The notes under the pieces are model-generated. The model was not told the origin of the DNA, ran no database searches, and was given only the letters and a program-made list of their open reading frames with translations. Positions 24,937 through 50,479 of a stretch of 64,000 nt of DNA are shown here, in pieces. The position numbers and the translations under genes are program-made. How positions within the stretch are numbered: the first letter of the stretch is position 1; each line of letters begins with the position of its first letter. The stretch comes from Methanobacteriota archaeon (GTDB taxonomy: Archaea > Halobacteriota > Methanomicrobia > Methanomicrobiales > Methanospirillaceae): assembly GCA_029547605.1 (NCBI GenBank), contig JAKPPB010000111.1, forward strand, positions 1 to 64,000. Direction: 5' to 3'.

Positions 24937-25620
24937 TCAGCAGCAGTTGCTGCAACCGAAGGGACAGCCAGAGAGATACGCGGGTAAATTCACTACAGTG
25001 GTCTGGTTCGGGGCAACGACCGCTGTCGCGCACCAGACTGCATCCGAGGATGATGTTCTCCCTTTCGTCACTTTCAAACAATATGAACCGGACAGGATGT
25101 TCTTATCGAAATTGACTGGGAGAATGCCGCAATAGTGCCATTGCATGTCGTAATAATCCTCCACATCGGTGGCAAAGAACAGGGGCTTTACCCATAGATA
25201 GTAGGGACCTCCCGAACTCGGCCCGGAAACCACCATCGATCCATAACCCCTCTCAGTTGTCTCGATTGGACTCGGATAGTAGGTTGGCCCGGTTGAATAA
25301 TGCGTAACGACACTGTACACGTTGACGCCACTACAACTGCTGCAATAGCCATAGGGGGAGATGGAATCAGTGATACTGACGCTTGTCTGGGATGTCCCAG
25401 TAGTTGAACGATACCTGGACAGCTCATTCAACTGCTGGGTGAACACCGGTGTCTCCTGTATGGCACTGAATTTTTCCAGTACATTCCCCTTCGAGATAGT
25501 CATCCCCGATGTCGAAAAGGGAGCATTCAGATTCCTGGCCTCGAACGCCGCAGACGCCGGGACCAATAGCACGACTAAGACAACCATGAATGCAATTGCA
25601 TAAAGATACGTAACCTTCAT
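24937..25620 (-). CDS. Secreted protein with cysteine-rich C-terminal tail
   Basis: A 227-aa protein with a clear signal peptide (MKVTYLYAIAFMVVLVVLLV, cleavage probably after PASA at about 24). The mature part is Ser/Thr/Tyr-rich with PYGYCSSCSG, a central region YYLWVKPLFFATDVEDYYD, and the unusual ending SGCPFGCSNCC with five cysteines in the last 10 residues, which suggests disulfides or metal binding at the C-terminus. No homologous family is recognised. It is first in the 24-31 kb envelope island. The 400 bases upstream to 26021 hold no supported gene. Confidence 0.75.
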   Translation of the reverse strand: MKVTYLYAIAFMVVLVVLLVPASAAFEARNLNAPFSTSGMTISKGNVLEKFSAIQETPVFTQQLNELSRYRSTTGTSQTSVSITDSISPYGYCSSCSGVNVYSVVTHYSTGPTYYPSPIETTERGYGSMVVSGPSSGGPYYLWVKPLFFATDVEDYYDMQWHYCGILPVNFDKNILSGSYCLKVTKGRTSSSDAVWCATAVVAPNQTTVVNLPAYLSGCPFGCSNCC

Positions 25621-26021: not shown

Positions 26022-26857
26022 TTACCCGGAAGTGTAGCTCACTTCCTTTGCCAGGTTGAAGAGGCCGCTCGCGGTGGTCACGTCACTGTATGTGATCTCG
26101 CTTCCAACCGCGGTGCTGTTGCCGATCCCCTCCTGGAGATTTGCATTGACATACACCGTGGCAGTACCGACTGCTCCAGTAGTCAGGTCTCCCTCGGTCT
26201 GGTTCACGCCTTCAATCTCGACGTAGTAGTCCATTGATACCGGAGTGCTGGTTGAATCCGCGGTGATCGTGGCACCAGTTGCAGAAGTCACTGCAGCCTC
26301 GGACACAACCATTTCGGATCCTGCCACAATCACGCCATTTGTCGATGGCAACACTGCTCCATCGGGTGCTCCCCAGACCGAGTCACAGCAGGTTTCTCCT
26401 ACAGTGGCGCCATATGCAATGGTCTCTACAAGGATGCTCTCATCGGCGATCATCTTTCCAGTACTATCGCCGTCGCCGTTGGTATCATACGTCAATATTT
26501 GCGTCGACTCGAAGTTGTCGCTGTTGGCAGTCTTTGGCCCGGTGTCAAGGTTTGTGTATTTGTCATACGTCGCCTCGCCCGAAATTGCCATGATGTCCTG
26601 CTGGTAACTTATGGTTGACTGCCCTTCTCCACTGGTTGCATTCAGCGGCGGGTTGTCACTCAAGTCATTGTTTCCCTGGACATACACGAATTATCGGAAT
26701 GAGAATAGAGGTTACCGATTACCGCGGCAGATGTCCGGGTCGTGATCGATGTTGTCTCGTTGGTGGGAGGGAGTGTCCTTGCGGCAGTTGCAAAGGTCCC
26801 AAAAACTGCTATCATTATAAGAATGACAGCTATGCATATGCAGGTATTTCGTTTCAT
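26022..26857 (-). pseudogene. Secreted DLVYKEKTT-family member with a frameshift
   Basis: The signal part starts at ATG 26857 behind AAGGTGGCACA: MKRNTCICIAVILIMIAVFG, then TFATAARTLPPTNETTSITT. After AVIGNLYSHSDNS the frame breaks near 26685 and continues in another frame as VYVQGNNDLSDNPPLNATSG. Aligned with the intact copies (VMGTMTNSESVV, then NQDIRNNPPLN) this is most simply one base lost. Downstream family landmarks remain: LDTGPKTANSDNF for LDTGNKVANQKNF, IADESILVETIA for TTSESLLLDLAS, and the end VTTASGLFNLAKEVSY. It is the most diverged copy and has lost the YCN cysteine block. A sequencing error is possible. Confidence 0.7.
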
Positions 26858-27429: not shown

Positions 27430-29664
27430 TTATGGGACCGAGACTTTCTTGGTATAATAACTCCACCGACTTTTGCCGGCACAGTCATAACTCATGACTG
27501 CCAGCGTCACCGTGAAAGTCCCTTTCCTGGAATAGGTATGTTTGGGATTCCGGGATATCGAGGTCTTTCCATCGCCAAACTTCCATACCCATGATACAGG
27601 ATAGCCTGTTGACGTGTCAGTAAACTGGATGGTATGCTTAGGGGTGGTGAGGGCTTTATGAGTGAAAGATGCCTGGGTCGGACAGTTGCAGGGATTTAGG
27701 ATCTGGTAATTCCCGAAGTTCTGGGTCTGGTTGGTTGCTGCTACCGCAGTAAATTGAAATTTCCCTGATGCAGGCTCTGTCTGCTGCCATCCGGATATCT
27801 GGAGCTCGTTCACCGTGTAATTGCCAGGGTTCTTAATCAGGAGCTGGTAGTACCCCACTGGGGAAGAGACAGTCGACCCATAGAGTTGCGTCTCGTTGTA
27901 CACCCTGATCATAAAGTCCTGGAGTCCCTGCTCCCCGGAATCCCGTTTCCCGTTCCTGTTGGCGTCCAGGTATTTGTAGCCTGTCACGTATAACCATCGG
28001 AAGAAGCCGAAGTTGTTGTCAGGATGGTCTTCCTCAATGACATCAAAGAAGATACAAGTACGGGGAACCGGGTCATTACTGTAGACCACTGGCGGGACAA
28101 GAACCGGGTTCGCCATTGCATACAATTGTTCGTTGAAGTCAGTGGTGTCGCCATCCGTAATGGCGGGAACACTCACTACGTAGGGTCCAGGAGTAAGCAG
28201 TGAAAACTCGTAGAACCCGGTTTCATTCGTCTTGGTGATGTTTACAGTGCTGCAGGGGTAAGTATTCCCGCAATTGGTACAGAGCCACATGGTAAGATCC
28301 GGAATTCCGGGTTCACCGGGATCCTGCTGCCCGTTCCCATTGTTGTCATAATAGACTGTGCCGGATTTATTGTAGGTGGGGCTTGGATCGTAGCATGCTC
28401 TGTCAGTATCTTCGACAATATTCCCTCCCCCCTGTGGCGTCGCATTCGCAGTGAAATAATTGCACTGTGTTCCCAATACCGCAGTCACGGGCCCATAATA
28501 ACAGGTGAAAGACTCTCCAGGTTGTAACGGGTCAGGAGGAGTACAGGTAGGAGCATAGAGTGTATCATCCAGTTGAATGTTGGTAAGGTTCACATTTCCG
28601 TCATTTGTCACCACCAACTTGTAGTACACCGGATATCCCTCCAGCACATCAATCGGGGTCGTATCTGCGTGTGTAAAACTCACGTTGTCGGTGGAGATGA
28701 GTTTCTCAACCATGATGGATGGAATCGTTTCATAGAAGACCGATGCGTTCGCACTGATGGAACCCGGCAGGAGCGAGATGGTAGTTACCGACTGCCTGTT
28801 TCCGCCTGGGTCATACAGGAGAGTCCCATAATTGCCCCTGACATCTGCCATGATATGGGCATGTCCACTCCCCACGGGTGCTGTAAATTCCAAAGGTATT
28901 TGGCCTGTCGCATTGGTTGTGCCACTTGATGGGTTCAGGGTTCCTGATGAGTCATGATAGAAATTCACACTGATATCCTCGAGGGGATCGCCATGCTGGT
29001 CATACACCGTTGCCACAAGTGGGACTGTACCACCACCTGATGTGTCCTGGGTTACTGGAATAAGCGTAACATTGACCGGGAACCGGAACGTGCATTTTCC
29101 TTCGCTATCCCGGGGCACAGAGTTGAGGATCTGGAACGCCCTTGTCCTGACCGCATCACGGGGGGTAAGTGACTGGCGGTATGCATCATACGGTGTGGTA
29201 ATCGTCGGATCGCTCATGAACTGGTACCGCCCACCTGTTCCCTGGTAAATGCCATATGGTTCCGTGGTGAGATACCAGAGCGCCGACTGTATGGATGCAG
29301 CTTCCAGGTTGGTGAGTGTAGGAGCCGCCGCATAGGTATTAAGGATATAATTGACCGCACACCAATCCACCTGGTCGCGGATATCTTCAGAAAGTGGACC
29401 ATTCACGACAAGGATATTGCCAACACTTATCGTAGTAAAGAGGTCTATGCAGAATCCCGGATAGGTTATGCCCCCAACGTTCATATTGAAGACTTGTGCC
29501 GGGGTGTACCTGCTGTAATACCGCGTGTAAATGCTCTCACCGGCACCAAGTCCGGTGAATGTCGCGGTGGTCTGTGCAAGGGCGATCCCGGGAATGCAAC
29601 TTCCCAGAACCAGCAGTGCAAGGATCATTACGAAAACGGTGCGATTCCTCATGGTCGTGTTCAT
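27430..29664 (-). CDS. Thioester-domain, SdrD-B and PKD-containing surface protein
   Basis: A 744-aa secreted modular protein. The signal peptide is VFVMILALLVLGSCIPGIAL. Residues 32-190 resemble the TQXA/thioester domain of Gram-positive adhesins: Cys72 in YPGFCIDL and Gln126 in SIQSALWYL could form the internal Cys-Gln thioester. Next come an Ig-like (Big_1-type) domain at about 195-300, a DUF11-like repeat (YYKLVVTNDGNVNLTNIQLD), two SdrD-B/Cna-B-like units (YYDNNGNGQQDPGEPGIPDL and YLDANRNGKRDSGEQGLQDF), and a C-terminal PKD (VSWVWKFGDGKT). No sortase motif or membrane anchor is seen at the end. The promoter TATA is at 29770-29781. Confidence 0.85.
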   Translation of the reverse strand: MNTTMRNRTVFVMILALLVLGSCIPGIALAQTTATFTGLGAGESIYTRYYSRYTPAQVFNMNVGGITYPGFCIDLFTTISVGNILVVNGPLSEDIRDQVDWCAVNYILNTYAAAPTLTNLEAASIQSALWYLTTEPYGIYQGTGGRYQFMSDPTITTPYDAYRQSLTPRDAVRTRAFQILNSVPRDSEGKCTFRFPVNVTLIPVTQDTSGGGTVPLVATVYDQHGDPLEDISVNFYHDSSGTLNPSSGTTNATGQIPLEFTAPVGSGHAHIMADVRGNYGTLLYDPGGNRQSVTTISLLPGSISANASVFYETIPSIMVEKLISTDNVSFTHADTTPIDVLEGYPVYYKLVVTNDGNVNLTNIQLDDTLYAPTCTPPDPLQPGESFTCYYGPVTAVLGTQCNYFTANATPQGGGNIVEDTDRACYDPSPTYNKSGTVYYDNNGNGQQDPGEPGIPDLTMWLCTNCGNTYPCSTVNITKTNETGFYEFSLLTPGPYVVSVPAITDGDTTDFNEQLYAMANPVLVPPVVYSNDPVPRTCIFFDVIEEDHPDNNFGFFRWLYVTGYKYLDANRNGKRDSGEQGLQDFMIRVYNETQLYGSTVSSPVGYYQLLIKNPGNYTVNELQISGWQQTEPASGKFQFTAVAATNQTQNFGNYQILNPCNCPTQASFTHKALTTPKHTIQFTDTSTGYPVSWVWKFGDGKTSISRNPKHTYSRKGTFTVTLAVMSYDCAGKSRWSYYTKKVSVP

Positions 29665-30161: not shown

Positions 30162-31217
30162 TCAGGCGCTGAACCCGGCGCAGCGGATTCCCGATGTGTA
30201 GTGCATGTTCTTCTGGAATGCCTCAATATAACCTGCTGCAGTAGTCTTCTCCCGGTAGACAAGGTCAAGGCGCTGTCCTCCACAGGGACTCGGACACTGC
30301 TCAGCGCCCTCCATGGCATGTACCCTTATATACGCCTCGACAGCCCCTCGTGCAGGGGTGACCGGAGAGATTCCGTTCACTCCAATCGTATAGGCGAGTT
30401 CTGTAGGAGGTCCATCGATGACGGGCATAGTCTTGAAAATATTCAATCCTTCGTCACCTTCATTGGCAATTTCTGCAATATTCCTTGATTTAATGCTTGT
30501 TGTAAACTGCACTTCCTTCATGTCAAGTGAGCTTCCTGTTTCAACAACGTTACAGAAGGGAGGCAGGCATTTCTGAGTATAGCAATTGAGCGGGCAATAC
30601 CAGAGTTTCTGCTCTTCAATGGAAATGGTCATTCCGACACTGTCGATCAGCGCTGACTCGTCGGATGTTATCTTCCCGGTGTCCATCCCGGAGAACCCGA
30701 CCATTTTTTCCTGATTGACATTGTACATATTGGCAGTCTTCCAGTTTGTGTCAACCAATGAACGCTTTGCATACACCGTTTTTCCATGATCTGCAAGGGT
30801 GTTCTCGCGTGTTGAGCTGGTTATCTGCACTTCATCAGGGGCAAGAGGGGGTTCGGGTTCCTCTAGGAGTACAGAGGCGAATAGAGGATAATTTGGGTAC
30901 GGTAAAATATAGTTCCCATTTCCTGGTCCCACGTATATGAAATCATCCAGCTGCTCATCATATATCCAGTCACCCTTGCCCTCTTCTACTGGAAGCGGAT
31001 AATTTTCCATACGATTCAGGTTCACGTCCAGTGCTTCGTTGCTCTGCCTCCAGACCAGCGAATCAGTCTCTGTAAAAGCCCCGACACATTTCACAGAGGT
31101 GAGGGTTGAGATCAACTGGGTCTCGGCAGTATTCGGCGGCCGGATGTCGGCAGTTACTCCCGGCGAAAAAGTGATAAAAATCAACAGTAATGCTGTGCTC
31201 CATTGCAATAACTTCAT
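30162..31217 (-). CDS. Secreted DLVYKEKTT-family protein, diverged member
   Basis: A 351-aa protein with signal peptide MKLLQWSTALLLIFITFSPG at the chosen start (31217); the longer frame runs into the tRNA genes and is rejected. Family landmarks shared with the 43-48 kb copies are: CPLNCYTQKCLPPFCNVVETGSS (four cysteines where others have two, counted as separate short blocks), YTIGVNGIS for YSVGLSGTG, HAMEGAEQ for HVMEGRTG, and RLDLVYREKTTAAGYIEAFQ at the C-terminus. It has an extra acidic, Pro-rich insertion (about 75-110, LLEEPEPPLAPDE). Function unknown. It is on the opposite strand from the main cluster, 12 kb away. Confidence 0.8.
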   Translation of the reverse strand: MKLLQWSTALLLIFITFSPGVTADIRPPNTAETQLISTLTSVKCVGAFTETDSLVWRQSNEALDVNLNRMENYPLPVEEGKGDWIYDEQLDDFIYVGPGNGNYILPYPNYPLFASVLLEEPEPPLAPDEVQITSSTRENTLADHGKTVYAKRSLVDTNWKTANMYNVNQEKMVGFSGMDTGKITSDESALIDSVGMTISIEEQKLWYCPLNCYTQKCLPPFCNVVETGSSLDMKEVQFTTSIKSRNIAEIANEGDEGLNIFKTMPVIDGPPTELAYTIGVNGISPVTPARGAVEAYIRVHAMEGAEQCPSPCGGQRLDLVYREKTTAAGYIEAFQKNMHYTSGIRCAGFSA

Positions 31218-31311
31218 CCAGGCACCACCAAACCGGATATGATTTCTTATTTTCCGCATATGGCAATATATATTTCGCTGTTGTTGAAAACAAACAAAAA
31301 TAACGGGAAAA

Positions 31312-31384
31312 CGCCCAGGTCGGAATTCGAATCCGAGTCGTCGGCGTGACAGGCCGACATGATAGGCCGCTACACTACCTGGGC
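31312..31384 (-). tRNA. tRNA-Asp (GTC)
   Basis: Acceptor GCCCAGG/CCTGGGC, anticodon loop CTGTCAC within GGC/GCC stem giving GTC, T arm CTCGG-ATTCGAA-TTCCGA-like, discriminator G as expected for tRNA-Asp. 73 bases, no intron, CCA not encoded. 33 bases separate it from tRNA-Tyr. Confidence 0.93.
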
Positions 31385-31417
31385 ACACCAGATCTTTTCG
31401 CGCATCTTTTTTAGAGA

Positions 31418-31523
31418 TCCCGCCTCCCGGATTTGAACCGGGGACATCGCGGTAGCCGCGCAATTGCCTGGAACGGCAGATCATACTACAGCCGCGCACT
31501 CTACCAGTCTGAGTTAAGGCGGG
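31418..31523 (-). tRNA. tRNA-Tyr (GTA) with 32-base intron
   Basis: Acceptor CCCGCCT/AGGCGGG with the archaeal-Tyr C1-G72 pair and discriminator A. D arm ACTC/GAGT. Anticodon stem CGCGG/CCGCG with loop C-T-G-T-A-G-A interrupted after position 37 by an intron (31454-31485 on the minus strand). T arm CCCGG-TTCAAAT-CCGGG. The mature tRNA is 74 bases of a 106-base gene. The intron position is the usual archaeal one, cut by the splicing endonuclease at a bulge-helix-bulge. Confidence 0.92.
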
Positions 31524-31594
31524 ATTTGCGCTCATACTATAGGGGGAATGAACCTATTAAACGTATCGATTTGGCGGGAACGCTGTTGCCCTGC

Positions 31595-37764: not shown

Positions 37765-37900
37765 GGTTCTTGCACCTATCAGGTTCAGCTCGCAGAAACG
37801 AGCCACATTCCTTCACGGGACGTATCCCGTAAGACCTATAGGAATCGGTTGCAGGGGTATTAAACTGCGCGGTCAGCGATACCCCCACACCCCACGCCTC

Positions 37901-41829: not shown

Positions 41830-42097
41830 GGACGTGCGCCAGATCGTGATCACCACTGGGAAAGGGAAGTATGTCTTCGATTCAGCGGAGGTCGCGGCAA
41901 TGACCATGCAGGGGATTACCACCTACCAGATCACCGGTGAGCCGAGGTTCGAGGCCGCCGCACAGGAGATCCCCGATGATGATGTAAAGATGGTAGCCGA
42001 GCAGGCACAGGTCAGCCTCGATGCCGCCCGGGAAGCGCTCCAGAAGACGGGCGGGGACATCGCTGAGGCCATCATCCATCTCACCAGCCATGTTTGA
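41753..42097 (+). CDS. nac: Nascent polypeptide-associated complex protein (alpha-NAC)
   Basis: A 114-aa ribosome-associated chaperone homologous to eukaryotic alpha-NAC. The NAC domain is QFEDVRQIVITTGKGKYVFD followed by AEVAAMTMQGITTYQITGEP, and the UBA domain is VKMVAEQAQVSLDAAREALQ. Tandem ATG codons occur at 41753 and 41756. Its start lies within the PUA frame and its stop overlaps the trmI start by eight bases. Confidence 0.95.
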   Translation: MMPGNINPRKMKQMMKQLGMQVEQFEDVRQIVITTGKGKYVFDSAEVAAMTMQGITTYQITGEPRFEAAAQEIPDDDVKMVAEQAQVSLDAAREALQKTGGDIAEAIIHLTSHV

Positions 42098-42815
42098 GCC
42101 CGGGGAACGTGTCCTGCTGGTCGGTGGGGGGAGGACATTCTTTGTCCGGGCAGGGACAGGGTCGTTCTCCACCGACAGGGGCGTCATCGACCTCGACGCC
42201 CTCCTTCAGGCATCCCCGGGGGATATCATTACCACTCACACGGGGCAGGACTTCCGTGCCCTTAGTCCCCGCCCCACCGACTTCTTCTCGCGGGCCAGCC
42301 GGAGCGGGGCCCCCATGCTCCCAAAGGACATCGGACTCGTCATCGCCTACACGGGGATGAACCACCGGGATGTTGTGCTCGATGCCGGGACCGGGAGCGG
42401 AATTGCCGCCATCTACTTCGGAGGGATCGCAAAGGCCGTCAGGACCTGCGAAATAAGGCCCGAATTCTCCCGCCTGGCCGAGAAGAACATCCGGGACGCA
42501 AGGCTCCAGAACGTAGAGGTGGTATGCGGTGATTTTCTGAAAGAGGAGGGGCTTTATGACGTTGTTCACCTCGATCTCACCATTACTCCCGATCACGTGC
42601 AGCACGCCCACTCGCTCCTCCGTTCCGGTGGCTACCTCGCCTGCTATACCCCGTTCCTCGAACACCTCTTCACTGTGATGGATGCCGCGGGAGAGTTATT
42701 CACTGAAGTCCAGGCACATGAATGCATCGAAAGGGAGATGACGAGGAGTGCACGGGGTTCTCGCCCTTCTACCCGTGTATGCCATAGCGGATATGTCACG
42801 GTTGCGAGGAAATAG
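42090..42815 (+). CDS. trmI: tRNA (adenine-N1)-methyltransferase, TrmI family
   Basis: Makes m1A57/58 in the tRNA T loop. The 241-aa protein has the N-terminal small beta-domain (FEPGERVLLVGGGRTFFVRA), the SAM motif VVLDAGTGSGIAAIYFGG at about residues 92-109, acidic post-I TCEIRPEFSRLAEKN, and motif IV DVVHLDLTITPDH. Start MFEPGE at 42090 overlaps the nac stop (ATGTTTGA); the longer upstream frame is rejected. Last gene of the DHH-PUA-NAC-TrmI operon. Confidence 0.9.
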   Translation: MFEPGERVLLVGGGRTFFVRAGTGSFSTDRGVIDLDALLQASPGDIITTHTGQDFRALSPRPTDFFSRASRSGAPMLPKDIGLVIAYTGMNHRDVVLDAGTGSGIAAIYFGGIAKAVRTCEIRPEFSRLAEKNIRDARLQNVEVVCGDFLKEEGLYDVVHLDLTITPDHVQHAHSLLRSGGYLACYTPFLEHLFTVMDAAGELFTEVQAHECIEREMTRSARGSRPSTRVCHSGYVTVARK

Positions 42816-43011: not shown

Positions 43012-44004
43012 ATGAAAAAGGCTATCCTTATCACAATTTTTCTTGCCCTCCTCGCTATAGGAATGGCAACGGCTGCTGATCCGATCCCTGCGACTATTGA
43101 GACGCAGGGCATCACGACTTCCACATCAGGTGTGTTTTATGGAACCATGACCAACACGGAGTCCGTAGTCTGGAGTGAATCAAACCTGGATCTCAGGAAC
43201 AACCCTCCACTCGGCCAGAATTACAACATTTTTAGATTTCCGATAAGCAGCAATTACCTTTGGCTAGAATTGGACCTGGATTTCCTTGATATTGATGGTG
43301 TCAATATTGGAGACATCACTTTACTCGCTCCCGAACGCCAGTCTGTGATGTCATACTCAGAGTCAATCATTGCTGACAATGGGTATGGCGAATTCAATGG
43401 TGTGCAGGCCCTCGACACCGGCAACAAGGTAGCCAACCAGAAGAACTTCGCTTCCACTGAGCAGTTTGATTTTGTCGTCTTCAGCGACGCCATGGGAAGG
43501 GCGACCACTTCAGAGAGCTTACTGCTCGACCTTGCAAGCCAGGGATCGGACGCGAGAGAGAGGTTCACCTGTCCCTTTGCGACCGGCGATGAGGGATATA
43601 TCCCGGCATACTGCAACGTGTACGAGATGGGAAGTTCTTTTACCGGAAGCCAGGTCTCGATGGTTACCAGGGTAAGTGAGAACCACATCGCAAAATCTGC
43701 CGATGTACCGACTCAGGTTGACTACTCTGTAGGCCTCTCAGGAACCGGTTCCGTGGCCTCATGGATCAATACGCATGTGATGGAGGGCAGGACCGGCGGG
43801 CACCTGGAACTGGACAATCCTCTTGGACTCCCGGTACAGGCGAATTTCCTTTGGAACTACGACACCGGTGCGCCGTTTTCGGGCCCTGGAACAGGCTTCA
43901 TGCAGAGCGTTGACCTTGTCTACAAGGAGAAGACAACCATATCGGGCGTGATCGAATCCTTCAGCAAGTCAATGAGTGTCCAGGACGCAGTCAGGCGTCT
44001 CTGA
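43012..44004 (+). CDS. Secreted DLVYKEKTT-family protein A
   Basis: A 330-aa exported protein of a family I do not recognise. Signal peptide AILITIFLALLAIGMATAA. Conserved landmarks: LDLRNNPPLGQ, MSYSESIIADNGYGEF, LDTGNKVANQKNF, CPFATGDEGYIPAYCNVYEM (the only two mature cysteines), SSFTGSQVSMVTRVSENHIA, YSVGLSGTGSVASWINTHVM, and the C-terminal SVDLVYKEKTTISGVIESFS ending SVQDAVRRL. The pattern suggests an extracellular beta-rich domain stabilised by a disulfide. No anchor is seen. First of four tandem copies; a hairpin terminator follows. Confidence 0.85.
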   Translation: MKKAILITIFLALLAIGMATAADPIPATIETQGITTSTSGVFYGTMTNTESVVWSESNLDLRNNPPLGQNYNIFRFPISSNYLWLELDLDFLDIDGVNIGDITLLAPERQSVMSYSESIIADNGYGEFNGVQALDTGNKVANQKNFASTEQFDFVVFSDAMGRATTSESLLLDLASQGSDARERFTCPFATGDEGYIPAYCNVYEMGSSFTGSQVSMVTRVSENHIAKSADVPTQVDYSVGLSGTGSVASWINTHVMEGRTGGHLELDNPLGLPVQANFLWNYDTGAPFSGPGTGFMQSVDLVYKEKTTISGVIESFSKSMSVQDAVRRL

Positions 44005-44031
44005 ATGCCCTAGTATCGGTAGATGGACACA

Positions 44032-44062
44032 GGGGCTTTTTAGAAGCCCGGCTCTTCTATTA
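44032..44062 (+). terminator. Hairpin terminator after family gene A
   Basis: GGGCTT-TTTAG-AAGCCC forms a 6-bp stem (44033-44049) followed by a T-rich stretch. The same hairpin core (CACAGGGGCT...AGCCCC) recurs after the next family gene at 45409-45430, so the terminators were probably copied with the genes. The rest of 44005-44449 shows no gene. Confidence 0.5.
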
Positions 44063-44410
44063 TTTCTGCTGAAGGCGGATAGTCCCAATACTCCCTGCTG
44101 TCGAAACCGGCAGGTGATATCTCTGAACGCCGTGCACGCGCCTGGCATCCTGCCGATGAGACAGTAGGTACTTTATCCAGAGTGGGAAATACGCGAGTAT
44201 ATCGCTTAGATTAATACCAAAGCCTCATTTACGTAATGACAAAGATCTCCCGGGAGCGGCTTTTCTCAACCACGCCCATGCCGGTCAGCTGATATGATAT
44301 GTAACTCGCCAATCCTTGACCACTTCTGGAAAAGAACAGACCAGAACCATCAATATTTGAACGGAAAAGAGAGAAAGGTTCTTATGCTGCTGTAGCTAAA
44401 ATGTCTGGTT

Positions 44411-44449
44411 GATGCTGAGAGTATCAGCATAAACTGTAGGAGGAACAAA
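44411..44449 (+). promoter_or_regulatory. 5' leader shared by family genes B and D, with strong RBS
   Basis: GATGCTGAGAGTATCAGC followed by ATAAACTGTAGGAGGAAC matches the leader of the gene at 47414 (GATGCTGTGAGTATCGGA, then ACAGAACTGCAGGAGATG) at most positions. AGGAGG lies six bases before ATG. The first eight bases and GAGTATCAGC can form a small hairpin. Conservation of a leader between diverged coding regions suggests common regulation. Confidence 0.5.
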
Positions 44450-45385
44450 ATGAAGAAATTCGCATTCGCGGTCCTTGCCATCGCTCTCCTTGTCGGAAGT
44501 GTAATGGCAGTCGACCCCATCAATGCAACCGTCGAGACCCAGGCCATCTCCACCAGCACTGCTGTCACAGTGATGGGAACCATGACCAACTCGGAGTCTG
44601 TTGTATTGACCATGTCCAACCAGGACATCCGCAACAACCCGCCGCTGAACCAGTGGACCTATATTGGGGATGATGGATTCCCGGACGAGACCGAAACCAA
44701 CAACGTCTGGACGCCCGAGCGCCAGGCTGTGTTTTCCTATACCGAGTCCGTCCTCGCTGACAACGGTTACACCGAGTTCAACGGCGTCCAGTCCATGGAC
44801 ACTGCCAACAAGGTAGCCAACCAGAAGAACTTCAATTCCGTTGAGCAGTACGACTTCGTCGCCTTCACCGACGCAATGGGCAGGATTACCACTTCCGAGA
44901 GCCAGCTGCTCGACCTTGCCAGCCAGGGATCCGATGCACTGAGCCGGATGCTCTGTCCGTTTGCGACCGGTGACGCTGGATACATCCCGGCATACTGCAA
45001 CGTCTACGAGATGGGCAGCTCCTTCACCGGCGGCCAGGTCTCCGCAGTGACCAGGGCGAACACCAACTTCATCGCAAAGGCCGCTGACGTGCCGACCCAG
45101 ATTGACTACTCCGTTGGTCTCGCGGGAACCGGCTCTGCAGCAGCTTGGGTAAACGCCCACGTGATGGAAGGCCGGACCATGGGCTACTACGAGACTGCTA
45201 CTAACGACGCAAATGGAGAGGACTACACGCCTGCCTTCTGGAACTACGACACTGGAGCAGTTTCCCCGAGGAACGGCTTCGCTCAGGGTGTTGACCTTGT
45301 CTACAAGGAGAAGACCACCGCATCCGGCGTGATCGAGTCCTTCAGCAAGTCCATCAGTATCCAGGACGCCATCAGGCGCCTGTAA
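44450..45385 (+). CDS. Secreted DLVYKEKTT-family protein B
   Basis: A 311-aa exported protein closely related to A. Signal peptide KFAFAVLAIALLVGSVMA. The N-terminal half has VETQAISTSTAVTVMGTMTN and NQDIRNNPPLN. The middle has PERQAVFSYTESVLADNGYT and MDTANKVANQKNF. The two-cysteine block is CPFATGDAGYIPAYCNVYEM. The C-terminal half has YSVGLAGTGSAAAWVNAHVM, FWNYDTGAVSPRNGF and GVDLVYKEKTTASGVIESFS. It has a strong AGGAGG site and a clear terminator, so expression is likely high. Function unknown. Confidence 0.87.
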   Translation: MKKFAFAVLAIALLVGSVMAVDPINATVETQAISTSTAVTVMGTMTNSESVVLTMSNQDIRNNPPLNQWTYIGDDGFPDETETNNVWTPERQAVFSYTESVLADNGYTEFNGVQSMDTANKVANQKNFNSVEQYDFVAFTDAMGRITTSESQLLDLASQGSDALSRMLCPFATGDAGYIPAYCNVYEMGSSFTGGQVSAVTRANTNFIAKAADVPTQIDYSVGLAGTGSAAAWVNAHVMEGRTMGYYETATNDANGEDYTPAFWNYDTGAVSPRNGFAQGVDLVYKEKTTASGVIESFSKSISIQDAIRRL

Positions 45386-45408
45386 GTGTGCAGTACTGAA
45401 AGATAACC

Positions 45409-45441
45409 ACAGGGGCTCAAAAAAGCCCCATTTTTTTGTTT
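45409..45441 (+). terminator. Hairpin and T-tract terminator after family gene B
   Basis: GGGGCT-CAAAAAA-AGCCCC (45412-45429) is a perfect 6-bp stem followed by TTTTTTTGTTTT. It is closely similar to the terminator after gene A. Confidence 0.65.
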
Positions 45442-45589
45442 TACGTCTTATCTTGTTGTATTTCTGATTATATCTTGACTAAGAAGTGGGTTTAAAGTCA
45501 TTTTAACAGCAATACTTCTTACAAATGGCAGCGAGGAATTTGAGAGCCTCCACTCATCAAAATCCATGATGAAAAGTGAGGGTTGTCAG

Positions 45590-45705
45590 CTTGATATCCA
45601 CGCACGATTAATCCTGCCTTCCCCGATAGGTGCCACGGCAGCAGTTCAGTGGTTGAATTGAAATGCAGGTAACAACCTCGGTTCTCACTCCCTCCAGAAA
45701 ACAGA
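45590..45705 (-). repeat. Dispersed non-coding repeat, copy 3 (inverted)
   Basis: Read on the minus strand, CTGTTTTCTGGAGGGAGTGA, then GAACCGAGGTTGTTACCTGC and ATTTCAATTCAACCACTGAACTG align with 3205-3280 (CTGTTTTGTGTGGGGAGACT, ATCGAGGTTGTTATCTGC, ATATCAATTCAGTCACTGAACCG). Similarity fades after the CTGCCG that follows. The surrounding 45442-45815 gap has no gene I can support. Confidence 0.5.
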
Positions 45706-45815
45706 CTTGATTGTCATTTTTTTGCTGTTTGGTTGTATTGTTAAAGGCATAATACCATAGAGAAAAAAGCATTTATTTCTGGAAATGAAATACTGTCCCG
45801 TTAAGGAGGAACCAA

Positions 45816-46259
45816 ATGAAGAACATTACCTGCCTCGTAATGGGCATTCTCACCCTCTCTCTGCTGATTGGCAGTGCATCTGCCCTATGGGAGAACATGA
45901 CCCCCTCTATGGGAGGTTCCTATCAAGATATTTTCAAGACTCCTAACCTGACCCCTTCAAGCTGGGCTTCTTACGAGGATGCATTCAAGACTCCCACACT
46001 GACTCCCTCGAGCTGGTCTTCCTACGAGGATGCTTTCAAGACCCCTGAAATGACTCAGGCCTGGTCATATTATTATGATGATCCCTTTAAACCAATCAAT
46101 CCTACTCCATCTATGTGGTCATCCTATGAAGATGCGTTCAAGGCGCCTGAACTGACTCCCTCAAGCTGGGGTTCCTACGAGGACGCATTCAAGACCCCCG
46201 AGCTGAAGTATGCGTGGTCGTATAACAACCCGAATGTATTTAAAATCCCCTGGGAATAA
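45816..46259 (+). CDS. Secreted protein made of seven 17-residue repeats
   Basis: A 147-aa protein. Residues 1-27 are the signal peptide and one short linker (ITCLVMGILTLSLLIGSASA). Residues 28-146 are exactly seven 17-residue units with consensus LTPSSWxSYEDAFKTPE. Units 2, 3 and 6 are nearly identical; units 4 and 7 are variant (MTQAWSYYYDDPFKPIN, LKYAWSYNNPNVFKIPW). One Glu follows the last unit. The spacing of Trp, Tyr, Phe and Pro suggests a solenoid, fibre or binding repeat; no known family is recognised. RBS AAGGAGGAACCAA is strong, and a T tract of 18 follows. Confidence 0.85.
   Translation: MKNITCLVMGILTLSLLIGSASALWENMTPSMGGSYQDIFKTPNLTPSSWASYEDAFKTPTLTPSSWSSYEDAFKTPEMTQAWSYYYDDPFKPINPTPSMWSSYEDAFKAPELTPSSWGSYEDAFKTPELKYAWSYNNPNVFKIPWE
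45897..46253 (+). repeat. 51-bp tandem repeat, seven units, inside the repeat protein
   Basis: Seven in-frame units of 51 bases encode the 17-residue repeats. Units 2, 3, 5 and 6 keep the TCYTAYGARGAYGCNTTCAA core at DNA level; units 1, 4 and 7 are more diverged. No spacer lies between units. Confidence 0.85.
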
Positions 46260-46292
46260 CCAAAAAGGAACTGATAAGTGAATCCCCCCAAA

Positions 46293-46310
46293 TTTTTTTT
46301 TTTTTTTTTT
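46293..46310 (+). terminator. 18-T tract after the repeat protein
   Basis: An uninterrupted run of 18 T follows the repeat-protein stop by 33 bases, without an obvious hairpin. Long T tracts terminate archaeal transcription. The remaining gap to 46669 carries no supported gene. Confidence 0.5.
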
Positions 46311-46669
46311 GATGTCTTGCCTTAGCGATGCAGAGATTCTCCATTTATTCTATTTGGATAAGAATCATTACGCATCATTTCCCAGAGTGACCTGAAACGG
46401 ATTTGAGGACACTAGTAAGAATGTGACGTGCGTTCAAGTGCTTTAATGCCACTCATTTCAGAGCGATATCTTTTGAAAACCAATACCACAGACGGATTTA
46501 TTACGCCACTGGAGCAGATCTCGTAAGCGAATCCCTCTGAGGCAACGCTACAGGATGATGAAGGTATTTATGTCAGAATACCGCTGCCCTTGTGCGACGA
46601 CAGGAAAGCCTTTATAATTGCACTCGAAATAATTTTATGTTATCAAAAATATTTGGAGAAGGCGAGATC

Positions 46670-47119
46670 ATGAGAAAATATTCCATCCTCGTATTGGCCC
46701 TGGCATTTTTTATTGTCGGAATTGGAATGGCTGATTCTGCTGCGTATTCGAGCGTGGGTGATATGGGAAGTTCTTTTACCGGTTCCCGGGTATCGATGGC
46801 GACCACAACCAATTGGAACCCGGTTTCGATGGGCTACAGTGTAAGCCTTTCAGGAGTTGGCACTGCATCCGCATGGATTAATGCCCGCATCATGGAGGGC
46901 CGGACTGGTGCGACATTCGACCAGATGCGCAATAATTTCGGGTCCTTTACACCGGGATTCTGGAACTACGACACGGGCGCCGCGTCGCCTTCCAACGGGT
47001 TCATGCAGGGCGTCGACCTTGTTTACAAGGAGAAGACCACCGCATCCGGCGTGATCCAGTCCTTTGAAAAATCGATGAGCATCACGAACATGAACAGTGG
47101 GTTCTGTTCGTTCTGTTAA
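46670..47119 (+). CDS. Secreted DLVYKEKTT-family protein C, N-terminal half missing
   Basis: A 149-aa short copy. Signal peptide YSILVLALAFFIVGIGMADS is joined directly to the C-terminal half at YSSVGDMGSSFTGSRVSMAT, so the NNPPLN region and the two-cysteine block are lost. It retains YSVSLSGVGTASAWINARIM, FWNYDTGAASPSNGFMQG and VDLVYKEKTTASGVIQSFEK, then ends SGFCSFC, a new cysteine tail. Its 46958-47064 region is nearly identical to the gene at 47414. ATG 46670 is chosen at the signal peptide; the frame is open to 46592. Confidence 0.75.
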   Translation: MRKYSILVLALAFFIVGIGMADSAAYSSVGDMGSSFTGSRVSMATTTNWNPVSMGYSVSLSGVGTASAWINARIMEGRTGATFDQMRNNFGSFTPGFWNYDTGAASPSNGFMQGVDLVYKEKTTASGVIQSFEKSMSITNMNSGFCSFC

Positions 47120-47337
47120 TACCATTGCAAATAATATCTTCTTTTTTTATCTTCGTGCGTATTGCAGTTATTGTGAAGTAGTATACTTCACACCAGTGTT
47201 GATAACTTTCCCAGAGGGTAACGTGGTTATTGCACCGTATGATAAAAAATAGCATCAACTTATTGAATCTATGAAAGACTCGTGACCCGATGAAACCGAT
47301 CTGAACCCGCAGGAGCGCGAGTGAATTGAAACGGCAG

Positions 47338-47413
47338 AAACTATTTATTTCTGAGAACCAACTTTGTAATTCTGATGCTGTGAGTATCGGAACAGAACTG
47401 CAGGAGATGATCA
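47338..47413 (+). promoter_or_regulatory. Promoter and leader of family gene D
   Basis: ACTATTTATTTCTGAGAA at 47340-47357 is TATA-like and resembles ATTTATTTCTGGAAAT (45771-45786) before the repeat-protein gene. The leader from 47374 (GATGCTGTGAGTATCGG) matches the leader of gene B. RBS CAGGAGATGATCA lies before ATG 47414. The shared elements suggest coordinated expression of the island. Confidence 0.5.
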
Positions 47414-48346
47414 ATGAAAAAACTCGGAATTACTGCCCTGGTATTACTCGTCCTGTTCTCTGGGATGGGAATCGCGGATGACGCGGTTGGGGCTACCCGC
47501 CAGACACAGGGAATCACCACAGTCACCCATGTGGTGGTCTATGGAACATTCACCGACAGTGCCGAGGCGGTCTGGGTCTCGTCGAACCAGGACCTGCGGA
47601 ATAACCCCCCGCTGAATGCATACAGTGACAATGTAACGGCAGACGGAACGCTTGATCCAAACAACCAGATCTGGACCCCCGAAGCCCAGTATACCATGTC
47701 CTACAGTGAACAGACGCTCGCGGACAACGGGTATATTGAGTGGGACAAGACGGTGAGCCTCGATACCGGGAACAAGGTCGCAAACCAGGACAACTTCAAG
47801 GCGACCACGCAGTTTGACTTCGTGTCGTTTGAGGATGCCTTTGGGAGGGCGACGTTCTCGGAGAGCCTGCTCCTTGATGCCGCGAGCATGGGATCTTCGG
47901 CATCCAACCGGTACCTCTGTCCGTTTGGTACTGGAGACAGTGGCTACATCCCGGCGTACTGCAACATCGTCGAGATGGGAAGCTCCTTCACAGGGTCCCG
48001 GGTATCAATGGTCACCCAGGCCAGCGAGCGGCACGTGGCAGCATCCGCTGATGTCCCCGTTGGCATGAGTTACAGTGTCGGCCTCTCCGGAATCGGCTCA
48101 GCCGCTGCATGGATCAATGCCCACATCATGGAGGGCAGGACCGGCGGAGTATTCGGGTCATATGCCGCACCTGACGGCAAGACCTATGAACCAGGGTTCT
48201 GGAACTACGACACGGGCGCCGCGTCGCCTTCCAACGGGTTCATGCAGGGCGTCGACCTTGTCTACAAGGAGAAGACCACCGCATCCGGTGTGATCGAGTC
48301 CTTCAGCAAGTCGATGACCTACCAGTCCGGAACGCGCCGTCTTTAA
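47414..48346 (+). CDS. Secreted DLVYKEKTT-family protein D
   Basis: A 310-aa exported protein. Signal peptide KLGITALVLLVLFSGMGIA. Landmarks in order: TRQTQGITTVTHVVVYGTFT, NQDLRNNPPLNAY, MSYSEQTLADNGYIEW, LDTGNKVANQDNF, CPFGTGDSGYIPAYCNIVEM, SSFTGSRVSMVTQASERHVA, YSVGLSGIGSAAAWINAHIM, and C-terminal GVDLVYKEKTTASGVIESFS ending GTRRL. It matches protein C at DNA level over 48197-48303. Function unknown; probably surface-exposed or released. Confidence 0.87.
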   Translation: MKKLGITALVLLVLFSGMGIADDAVGATRQTQGITTVTHVVVYGTFTDSAEAVWVSSNQDLRNNPPLNAYSDNVTADGTLDPNNQIWTPEAQYTMSYSEQTLADNGYIEWDKTVSLDTGNKVANQDNFKATTQFDFVSFEDAFGRATFSESLLLDAASMGSSASNRYLCPFGTGDSGYIPAYCNIVEMGSSFTGSRVSMVTQASERHVAASADVPVGMSYSVGLSGIGSAAAWINAHIMEGRTGGVFGSYAAPDGKTYEPGFWNYDTGAASPSNGFMQGVDLVYKEKTTASGVIESFSKSMTYQSGTRRL

Positions 48347-48493
48347 GGCCGGGTTAACAACCAGAGGGTATGGGGCAGAGAACGCCTCATGCATTTTTTT
48401 TTCAACCGATTCTCTTTCACTGAACCCGCAGGGTATCATGGGAAACAGGGTGGTTCCACAGATGTTAAGAGATCTCATGTCAAATTTCTACGA

Positions 48494-50479
48494 ATGAAGA
48501 TCAGTCCCTGGCTCTTGCTCCTTCTGGCCCTGATCTGCGCATCGCTTGCAGGGTGCATATCGTCCCAACACGGTGATCTCCTCGAAGAGGCCAGGGCATT
48601 GCAGCAGGATGGCGAGCTTTCCCAGGCTCTCGCAAAATACGACGAAGCCATCGCGTTGAACGCCAACAACAGCGCTGCATGGGCGGGGAGAGGCGAGGTC
48701 CTGCACCTTATGGGGAGAGATGATGATGCACTCTCTTCCTATAACCAATCGCTCTCCATTGATCCTGCATCAGTGCAGCACTGGATTCGCGTGGGTGACA
48801 TCCTGGCAGGGATGGGACACAACGAAGAGGCTTTTTTCGCGTATGACCATGCGATCAGGCTTGATCAAAATGCCACGATGGCCTGGAACGGGGTAGGCGA
48901 AGTCTGGGCGCGTGAAGGAAGGTACAAGGACTCTGCCGCCGCGTTCTCGATGGTACTGCGCATAAACGACACATATTCGCCGGCAGCAAAGAGTCTTGGT
49001 GATGTGCTCATCGAGTTGAACGAGTTCGACCAGGCTCTTCGCTCATATGAGTACGCGCTCAACATCAGTCCCACATACGGCGAAGCAGCACTCGCAAAAG
49101 GCGACCTTCTCTCAAAATTCGGGAAATACCAGGAAGCCCTGGACGCATACCAGTATGCGTTCAAGTATATGCCCACCAACACGGTACTTCTCTACCACAT
49201 GGCGTCTGTCCAAACAGCGACAGGCAACTATAGAGATGCCATTGCTACCTATGACAGGGCAATCGCAGTCGATCCCAGGAATGCGACGTTCTGGGCATAC
49301 AAGAGCTATCTCCTCAACAACCTGGGGCAATTCAATGAATCGCTTGCAGTTGCAGAAACTGCGATTGCACTGGACCCGAAGAACAGCGTGGCGTGGAACA
49401 ACAAGGGCTTTTCCTACAATTCACTCGGCCGATTCGATGAGGCAGTGAATGCGTATTCATCGGCAATTGCAGCCAGCCCCGGGAACGTCGCTGCCCTGAC
49501 CAACCGGGGATTCGCCTACCTGAACCTTGGAAATTACACTGCTGCGATAACCGACCTGGACCGCGCGATATCCCTGGAACCCGGATTCTCGTCAGCATGG
49601 GCATACCGGGGCCAGGCCTACCTGCGTCAGGGGAAGTATGAAGATGCGATCCGGGATGCGGGGCGGGCAGTGGAGCTTGACCCGCGAAACACGTATGGAT
49701 GGTCAACCCAGGGATCAGCACTCCTCCAGAAAGGCCAGTTCAAGGAAGCTGCAACCTCGTTCGATCGTGCACTGGCACTCAACCCGACGTCGCTTGATCT
49801 CCTCCTCAACAAGGGATATGCACTCATGGCCGCAAAGGACTACAAGGGAGCTATTGATGCATACGATAAGGTCCTCTCGCTTGATCCAAGGAACACCGCA
49901 GCCTGGGGATACAAGGTCTCAGCCCTGCAGGGCCTTGGAAGGGGACATGAAGCGGTCCTTATTACAGACAGGGAACTGAAGAACGATCCCGGGAACCAGA
50001 CGCTGCTCATCAGGAAGGCATATGCGCTCGCCGCCATGCAACGCCCAAGCGAGGCGATGCTCATTTACAATCGCATACTCGCAGGAGACCCGACCAACAT
50101 CGAAGTCCTGCTCTGGAAAGCGATCCTCCAGTTCAGCATCGGTGACTATCTTGGGGCCATCTCCACCTATGACACCGTGCTCGAACTCAATCCCCGGACG
50201 ACCGAAGCGTATGTATACAGGGGGGTCGCGCTCTACCGGGTCGGCGAATACAGGAAGTCCCTTGACACTTATGACTACCTCATCACCCTCGATCCCCGCA
50301 TTTCGATGGCATGGACGAACCGTGGGTATGCCTTAATCAAGCTCGGCCGCATCCAGGATGCGATCAGGTCCTTTGACAGGGCGCTTGAGCTGTATCCCGG
50401 AAACAGCGATGCAAGATATGGCCGGATAGAGGCGATACGGGTGATGTGGCCCTCGTATAACCCTTCATGGGACAGGTAA
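48494..50479 (+). CDS. Large TPR lipoprotein
   Basis: A 661-aa protein with lipobox-like LLLLLALICASLAGC at about 6-20 (lipidated cysteine likely), followed by about 17 TPR units of 34 residues, for example GKYQEALDAYQYAFKYMPTN, GNYRDAIATYDRAIAVDPRN, GRFDEAVNAYSSAIAASPGN and GEYRKSLDTYDYLITLDPRI. It would face outside the membrane as a protein-interaction scaffold. ATG 48494 is chosen at the signal; the longer frame from 48389 runs through sequence just after gene D. Its position suggests interaction with the neighbouring secreted proteins, which is inference. Confidence 0.85.
   Translation: MKISPWLLLLLALICASLAGCISSQHGDLLEEARALQQDGELSQALAKYDEAIALNANNSAAWAGRGEVLHLMGRDDDALSSYNQSLSIDPASVQHWIRVGDILAGMGHNEEAFFAYDHAIRLDQNATMAWNGVGEVWAREGRYKDSAAAFSMVLRINDTYSPAAKSLGDVLIELNEFDQALRSYEYALNISPTYGEAALAKGDLLSKFGKYQEALDAYQYAFKYMPTNTVLLYHMASVQTATGNYRDAIATYDRAIAVDPRNATFWAYKSYLLNNLGQFNESLAVAETAIALDPKNSVAWNNKGFSYNSLGRFDEAVNAYSSAIAASPGNVAALTNRGFAYLNLGNYTAAITDLDRAISLEPGFSSAWAYRGQAYLRQGKYEDAIRDAGRAVELDPRNTYGWSTQGSALLQKGQFKEAATSFDRALALNPTSLDLLLNKGYALMAAKDYKGAIDAYDKVLSLDPRNTAAWGYKVSALQGLGRGHEAVLITDRELKNDPGNQTLLIRKAYALAAMQRPSEAMLIYNRILAGDPTNIEVLLWKAILQFSIGDYLGAISTYDTVLELNPRTTEAYVYRGVALYRVGEYRKSLDTYDYLITLDPRISMAWTNRGYALIKLGRIQDAIRSFDRALELYPGNSDARYGRIEAIRVMWPSYNPSWDR

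Follow-up and report, generated by a model that had tools for sequence, protein, structure and literature searches.

Homologues of the archaeal sheath protein SH/MspA in a Methanolinea-like methanogen, with a half-size gene and a conserved upstream leader

The sheath protein of Methanospirillum hungatei, SH or MspA, is an amyloid-like protein that makes up a detergent-resistant, tubular sheath of the kind found around some methanogenic archaea; it has already been characterised, with a published mass of 40.6 kDa (PMC6242892, PMC10593813, among papers on SH). The two accounts differ in its cysteines: PMC6242892, which also mentions two M. tarda homologues, gives one (C271), and PMC10593813 gives two and names Cys257. 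A 2024 survey (PMC11576556), cited throughout from the part of its text available to us, had already reported SH proteins in Methanolinea. The closure and insertion of sheath hoops are described as unclear in the sheath literature, that survey included.

Here we analysed a window of 64,000 nucleotides that the original prediction had described as holding six copies of an unrecognised secreted protein family. The open reading frames (ORFs) exist as predicted (Table 1), and the description of a secreted, multi-copy, envelope-related family still holds. The claim of novelty does not, since the proteins are homologous to SH/MspA by blastp and by profile (A3); a match to a characterised family was the outcome that the prediction itself had set against novelty.

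Table 1. Features of the window (SH assignments by homology).
Feature	Position	Strand	Description
Divergent SH paralogue, frame-broken	26022..26857	-	Break near 26680
Divergent SH paralogue	30162..31217	-	351 aa; additional cysteines
GCD14/PCMT-type methyltransferase gene	42021..42815	+	Upstream of the 43012 SH gene
Full-length SH (sheath) protein gene	43012..44004	+	330 aa; Cys187/Cys201; directly after the 42021 methyltransferase gene
Proposed leader hairpin	44411..44430	+	Exact 19-mer 44411-44429; proposed stem 44412-44418 with 44424-44430; loop 44419-44423
Full-length SH protein gene	44450..45385	+	311 aa; Cys169/Cys183
Secreted repeat protein gene, not SH	45816..46259	+	Units like SSYEDAFKTPELTPSSW; sits within the SH cluster
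Half-SH gene	46670..47119	+	149 aa; signal peptide and C-terminal half of the SH core
Diverged leader hairpin copy	47370..47392	+	Precedes the 47414 gene
Full-length SH protein gene	47414..48346	+	310 aa; Cys169/Cys183

Relation of the window proteins to M. hungatei SH

M. hungatei SH was represented by a 377-aa ORF of genome G202, taken as SH by its fit to the published description (its length and 40.5 kDa, with Cys257, Cys271, Asp43 and Lys363). Against this ORF as a one-sequence database, blastp returned E values of 3e-14 (47414 product), 1.4e-12 (44450), 5e-12 (43012) and 8e-8 (30162). The full-length window proteins are 23-24% identical to it, with the blastp alignment spanning just 190-230 residues or so of the full copies. 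A3, a profile built without any sequence of G202's genus, scored the ORF at 71.9 bits. The two-cysteine block of the window proteins aligns with Cys257/Cys271, with a spacing of 14 in both, and by analogy this pair would be the proposed bridge between rings. The ORF thus carries two cysteines where PMC6242892 gives one. The half-size 46670 gene had no significant blastp match to the ORF and is connected to it through its paralogues. We conclude that these genes almost certainly code for SH/MspA sheath proteins in a Methanolinea-like methanogen. The proteins most likely form a sheath, as judged from homology; polymerisation, disulfide links and a sheath on this organism would follow by analogy.

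For the SH copies, no notable match came from Pfam, NCBIfam or PHROGs. The best domain match in the full copies was a sub-threshold Ig_J_second (E 0.081, 47414 product), PHROGs matches had E values of 0.035 or worse, and PDB sequence searches returned no match to the copies and no SH sequence. In an AlphaFold model of the 44450 product, strands at residues 32-56, 90-117, 126-138, 145-159, 182-206, 216-241 and 279-306 form a predicted all-beta pattern readable as six arches, a reading of strand positions in a model of mean pLDDT 62. In the likely cap regions pLDDT falls below 50, and the five-strand beta cap published for Methanolinea SH is neither seen nor contradicted. Foldseek against BFVD and PDB gave no match at E <= 0.001, which says little, as no SH sequence was found in PDB; its top PDB rows were pore-forming proteins at a TM-score of about 0.1 and an rmsd of more than 40, and were set aside as meaningless.

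Aligned with the 44450 product, the 43012 product shows 67% identity and the 47414 product 59%, far above chance, and the three full copies have dN/dS of 0.09-0.26 against their relatives. They carry the motifs listed in the prediction and the Cys pair; in the minus-strand copies, identity to the 44450 product drops to 28-35%, and the divergent paralogues at 30162, 26022 and on contig C11 have lost most motifs. Four tandem copies are indeed present, but the one at 46670 is half-size and lacks both NNPPLN and the two-Cys block. The six predicted copies are likewise found in the window, but the family is larger, with ten places in this genome (four on contigs C2, C11, C39 and C103). The C39 copy is cut by the contig end, and the C103 copy is a C-terminal remnant. 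By hydropathy, a hydrophobic N-terminus is found in all five unbroken window copies; at 26022 the signal peptide lies in a different frame (26672-26857). That copy had correctly been called broken, and an unbroken relative exists at locus L019, which retains the first Cys only. The 30162 gene likely starts at 31217; the longer ORF extends through a tRNA gene. Strong ribosome sites had been predicted and are clear at 44450, 45816 and 47414 but weaker at 43012; the predicted terminators are not enriched (three over the two strands, where shuffles averaged 5.4). One stretch, 45412-45429 followed by T7, looks like a convincing terminator. Relatives of the 45816 repeat protein are present in other SH clusters.

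Family matches were found in 55 of the 232 genomes of the order, 53 of them in the window's taxonomic family and two, marginal, outside it (E about 0.007); among these genomes, genera g2, g3, g7 and g10 of that taxonomic family gave no match. Across the phylum, one further taxonomic family (f10) carries SH. We infer that g36 is Methanospirillum and g3 Methanoregula, so that clustered, multi-copy genes are present in Methanolinea- and Methanospirillum-type genera and absent from g3. This distribution fits the patchy spread of SH reported in PMC11576556. MAGs titled Methanolinea sp. or Methanoregulaceae archaeon hold the window's relatives; identity is 56-91% at eight of nine loci and 29% at the ninth.

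A conserved leader and an upstream methyltransferase gene

The leader hairpin lies 20 bases upstream of the 44450 start codon. An exact match to its 19-mer is found in 35 of the order's 231 genomes, each of them SH-positive, and the next ORF is SH in 37 of the 40 contexts examined, the remaining three being cut off. The 44450 and G202 SH leaders are identical at 36 of 39 bases, whereas the two proteins, aligned over 263 positions, share 24% identity. Several results count against a folded RNA stem. The 44450 leader folds better than shuffles (z -2.59), the 47414 leader does not (z -0.97), and the minimum-energy fold of the G202 leader is in a different register with a three-base loop. A simple stem test was positive in 85 of 109 leaders (base shuffles: mean 51, largest 61). 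Covariation was weak, with double changes at three of seven pairs (six cells), a cell count reached in 3 of 500 column shuffles. Paired cells made up 92.0%; the figure was 91.1% in column shuffles, with 27 of the 500 at least as high as the real stem, and 18.5-54.2% in slid controls. The slid controls themselves gave 2-4 double-change pairs and 2-8 double-change cells, and in double changes the real stem did not rise above them. RNAalifold retained four pairs at -0.96 kcal/mol. The element therefore rests on its sequence conservation and position, and the slid-control result lowered our view of the combined case for a dedicated leader and half-SH, set out below, from slightly favoured to evenly balanced.

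A search of the phylum with model R1 gave matches in 18 of 294 genomes. Twelve belong to the window's taxonomic family; the six outside it are weak (E 1.4e-4 to 0.008), and at the best of these six, no SH gene was found. At the gathering threshold, Rfam returned no matching element. If the leader works as DNA, it could act at the start site as a palindromic operator.

Homologues of the methyltransferase gene at 42021 were seen in 22 other genomes; in 21 of these, G202 included, SH follows on the same strand. This order contrasts with the 2024 survey, in which no conserved genomic context was seen around SH genes (PMC11576556), and such an upstream gene appears unreported, as does the leader sequence.

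These results also bear on other readings of the cluster. The proteins could be SH homologues that have lost sheath building in this lineage and serve instead as adhesins or an S-layer-like coat. The motif loss in the divergent paralogues would suit such a change of role, and a sheath on this organism is so far a prediction from homology; we nevertheless consider it unlikely, because the three full copies retain the Cys pair with the dN/dS values given above, show no weighty domain match and share their leader with the SH-like gene of G202. That same leader, together with the common neighbour gene, the aligned Cys pair and the significant similarity to the G202 ORF, makes it highly improbable that these are a new, lineage-restricted family of secreted proteins with no relation to SH, even though Pfam, NCBIfam and PDB sequences hold no weighty match. 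SH-like proteins have also been reported in viruses of sheathed archaea (PMC11576556), which raises an integrated provirus as their source. We give this almost no credence: among viral contigs, 19 pattern-matching stretches yielded no confirmed relative, the PHROGs matches are weak, and the tested neighbours are housekeeping-type genes (NAC, DHH, methyltransferase, LeuA-type) in conserved order.

Proposed sheath assembly and the half-size SH

By analogy with M. hungatei, sheath proteins of this kind would be secreted as precursors, with the signal peptide then removed. The mature protein may form an amyloid-like core, in which two six-stranded antiparallel sheets make up six beta-arches, plus a variable cap, and rings around the cell filament would arise by edge-to-edge joining of subunits. 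Neighbouring rings could then be linked through the conserved cysteine pair, and several full-length paralogues may give rings bearing different caps.

The 46670 gene is under purifying selection, and half-SH as a conserved class of SH gene appears unreported. Presumed to hold three arches, it is a candidate ring-ending or hoop-joining subunit; its AlphaFold model is poor (pLDDT 53.5). One filter for half-SH kept seven rows yet missed known ones, the window's copy among them, and no genome count is drawn from it. We see an even chance that in Methanolinea-like archaea and Methanospirillum the SH genes have a dedicated leader controlling or stabilising their mRNA, with half-SH ending, seeding or joining rings. 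The leader would then be a GAGUA-loop hairpin at the predicted mRNA 5' end (from TATA placement without a shuffled control), running into a near-fixed Shine-Dalgarno stretch. If so, the mRNA that it stabilises or controls would be that of a very abundant structural protein, and half-SH would give a handle on how hoops close and insert. The leader is a specific lead on the possible control of sheath synthesis and could serve as a DNA marker of the main sheath genes.

Comparison with described sheath proteins

An orphan family is thus placed in a known structural family, and three checkable facts on sheath genes are added. MspA of Methanothrix (Methanosaeta) thermophila PT (ABK14853.1) has also been reported as a sheath protein; the 2024 survey finds Methanothrix MspA to be without structural similarity to Methanospirillum SH and considers it misidentified as the main sheath protein (PMC11576556). 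Like the Methanolinea SH described in that survey, the window family is multi-copy and clustered. The part of the survey available to us does not mention a half-size class, a leader hairpin or a conserved upstream gene. With M. hungatei JF-1 SH/MspA (Mhun_2271, WP_011449234.1), compared through the G202 ORF, the window proteins have in common a signal peptide, the Cys pair spaced by 14, profile-level homology, a near-identical 5' leader, the upstream methyltransferase gene and strands readable as six beta-arches. They differ in sequence (about 24% identity) and in length (310-330 aa here, 377 aa there), and the extra length of the M. hungatei-type protein lies in its N-terminal half, where the cap is expected.

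Sheath proteins in the window

The ORF positions given in the original prediction were confirmed. Its suggestion of a novel family was not borne out, as the window proteins match an SH-like ORF of genome G202, and the family is almost certainly a known kind, the archaeal sheath protein SH (MspA), with new members here. Curated libraries (Pfam, NCBIfam, PDB sequences) returned nothing of weight for it; the literature pointed to archaeal sheath proteins. The G202 ORF has a GTG start and encodes 377 aa (40.53 kDa) with cysteines 257 and 271, Asp43 and Lys363. Because Methanospirillum hungatei SH agrees in size, mass and these residues in passages of PMC6242892 and PMC10593813 (377 aa, 40.6 kDa, Cys271, Cys257, D43, K363), we take this ORF, by its sequence, to be M. 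hungatei SH, standing in for the accession's own (WP_011449234.1). Those passages give C271 only (PMC6242892, 2018) versus two cysteines (PMC10593813, 2023).

Against a one-sequence database of the G202 ORF, blastp E-values were 3.3e-14 (47414), 1.4e-12 (44450), 5.1e-12 (43012), 8.4e-8 (30162) and 4.8e-14 (a paralogue on own-genome contig C11), with the 46670 product below significance. An SH profile built without any sequence of genus g36 (A3) scored the ORF at 71.9 bits. Its segment CVFAAASTEYFPAFCN aligns, cysteine on cysteine, with the CPFATGDxGYIPAYCN block described in the original prediction. In its AlphaFold model (mean pLDDT 62), the 44450 product has strands readable as six arches, as in SH.

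Aligned with the 44450 product, those of 43012 and 47414 show 67% and 59% identity, and seven more full-length relatives show 59–70%. The family has ten places altogether in the window's own genome, which comprises 2.26 Mb in 128 contigs. The 26022 copy is indeed broken, a frame break splitting the gene; an intact relative lies in locus L019 of a Methanolinea MAG. The island holding the protein at 24937-25620 is conserved, since L019 has an 88% identical counterpart.

SH genes and neighbouring features of the window
Position	Strand	Feature	Remarks
24937-25620	-	227-aa secreted protein, Cys-rich C-terminus	No family match
26022	-	SH gene
27430-29664	-	744-aa secreted protein; SdrD_B, PKD, Big_1 domains	Adjoins broken SH copy; 84% identical relative adjoins intact 26022-type copy in L019
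30162	-	SH gene	Start most likely at 31217
31400-31530	-	Resembles an intron-containing tRNA by eye, possibly tRNA-Tyr (GTA anticodon)	Upstream of tRNA-Asp (31311-31385); no call by ARAGORN or Rfam
37777-37829	-	eL15-Euryarchaeota ribosomal protein leader	RF03144, 42.3 bits
42021	+	GCD14/PCMT-type methyltransferase
43012	+	SH gene
44450	+	SH gene
45816-46259	+	Secreted repeat protein within SH cluster	Candidate sheath accessory; relatives in other SH loci, 83% (L012), 45-54% (G089 and G169)
46670	+	Half-length SH gene
47414	+	SH gene
48389-50479	+	696-aa TPR-repeat protein, lipoprotein-like N-terminus	Directly 3' of SH cluster

Leader hairpin and methyltransferase neighbour

A hairpin is common to the family's upstream sequences. 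We counted 49 occurrences of the exact 19-mer GATGCTGAGAGTATCAGCA, spread over 35 of 231 genomes from the order, against none for the reversed 19-mer. All 35 are also SH-positive with the broad profile A4; within the window's family, 18 of 53 SH-positive genomes do not have the exact 19-mer. The downstream ORF scores as SH in 37 of 40 distinct contexts (weakest E 9e-11); the locus end cuts it in the other three, two of which begin like SH signal peptides. In the window's own genome, the hairpin model R1 found four leaders, all before SH genes (44450, 47414 and the copies on contigs C2 and C39). The leader is diverged at 47414 and its canonical form absent at 30162, 26022 and 43012, the last having a short stem of its own instead. 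The 44450 and G202 leaders share 36 of 39 bases; their proteins are 24% identical. The hairpin had no match in Rfam and no mention was found in the literature searched; the main text of PMC11576556 contains neither 'UTR' nor 'hairpin'.

Upstream of the hairpin, 44 contexts show a purine-rich stretch together with a TATA-like box, whose centre lies at a median of -28.5 (-31.5 to -24.5 in 39 of 44). Since archaeal transcription usually starts about 25 bases past the TATA centre, the hairpin is predicted to lie at or near the mRNA 5' end. Of 43 distances measured from hairpin to start codon, 42 fall within 18–22 bases, and the interval usually contains TAGGAGG. Such a 5'-terminal hairpin could shield a long-lived mRNA whose product is very abundant; its loop, nearly invariant, may hint at a binding partner. 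Covariation in the leader showed no excess over slid controls and the G202 leader prefers a fold in another register, so a palindromic DNA operator is possible.

Homologues of the 42021 gene were seen in 22 further genomes among the loci examined. In 21 of the 22, the same strand carries an SH gene no more than 1.5 kb downstream; this measures adjacency given SH rather than methyltransferase frequency elsewhere, because the loci were chosen for SH or its leader. In G202 that gene is the SH ORF itself; in the 22nd genome the contig ends 156 bases past the homologue, at a 19-mer copy. The 19-mer lies between methyltransferase and SH in 15 genomes. PMC11576556 states that SH genes showed no conserved genomic context.

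The half-length gene

The 46670 gene (149 aa) joins a signal peptide straight to the C-terminal half of SH. Its counterpart directly precedes that of 47414 in loci L012 and L017, and is flanked by two full SH genes in genome G029. Its dN/dS is 0.018 (window-L012), 0.060 (window-L017) and 0.095 (L012-L017). Comparison with the G029 gene, which is 54% identical, gives 0.074 at saturated dS; full copies, compared in four pairs, gave 0.09–0.26. Half-size ORFs beginning at profile position 160-187 (A3, A4) are found in other genera too, among them in G202 and G206. Short M. hungatei homologues, from 111 aa up, are noted in the part of PMC6242892 available, where no treatment of them as half-cores was found. 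The gene is maintained, and we rejected its reading as a remnant. Its AlphaFold model is weak; we speculate that the product could form a ring end, seed or joint. Together with the leader element and the conserved neighbour, this half-length gene deserves specialist attention.

Distribution and host lineage

Profile A4 (26 rows) matched 55 of 232 genomes of the order, 53 in the window's family and two, marginally, outside it. All 12 genomes of g36 match, including G202 (one contig, 3,544,738 bases). A contig scan for relatives gave nine loci, all in MAGs titled Methanolinea sp. or Methanoregulaceae archaeon, from which we infer a Methanolinea-like host. A phylum-wide search matched 34 of 392 genomes; 18 belong to the window's family and the remaining 16 to a single other family, f10. 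In f10, the SH-like segments G485:C280:13368-13937 and G415:C124:10303-10620 lie within very long open frames, of 3056 aa and 1296 aa respectively. These long frames may encode multi-domain sheath proteins of the kind already published, and the f10 matches would be in line with the sheath genes reported from ANME-1.
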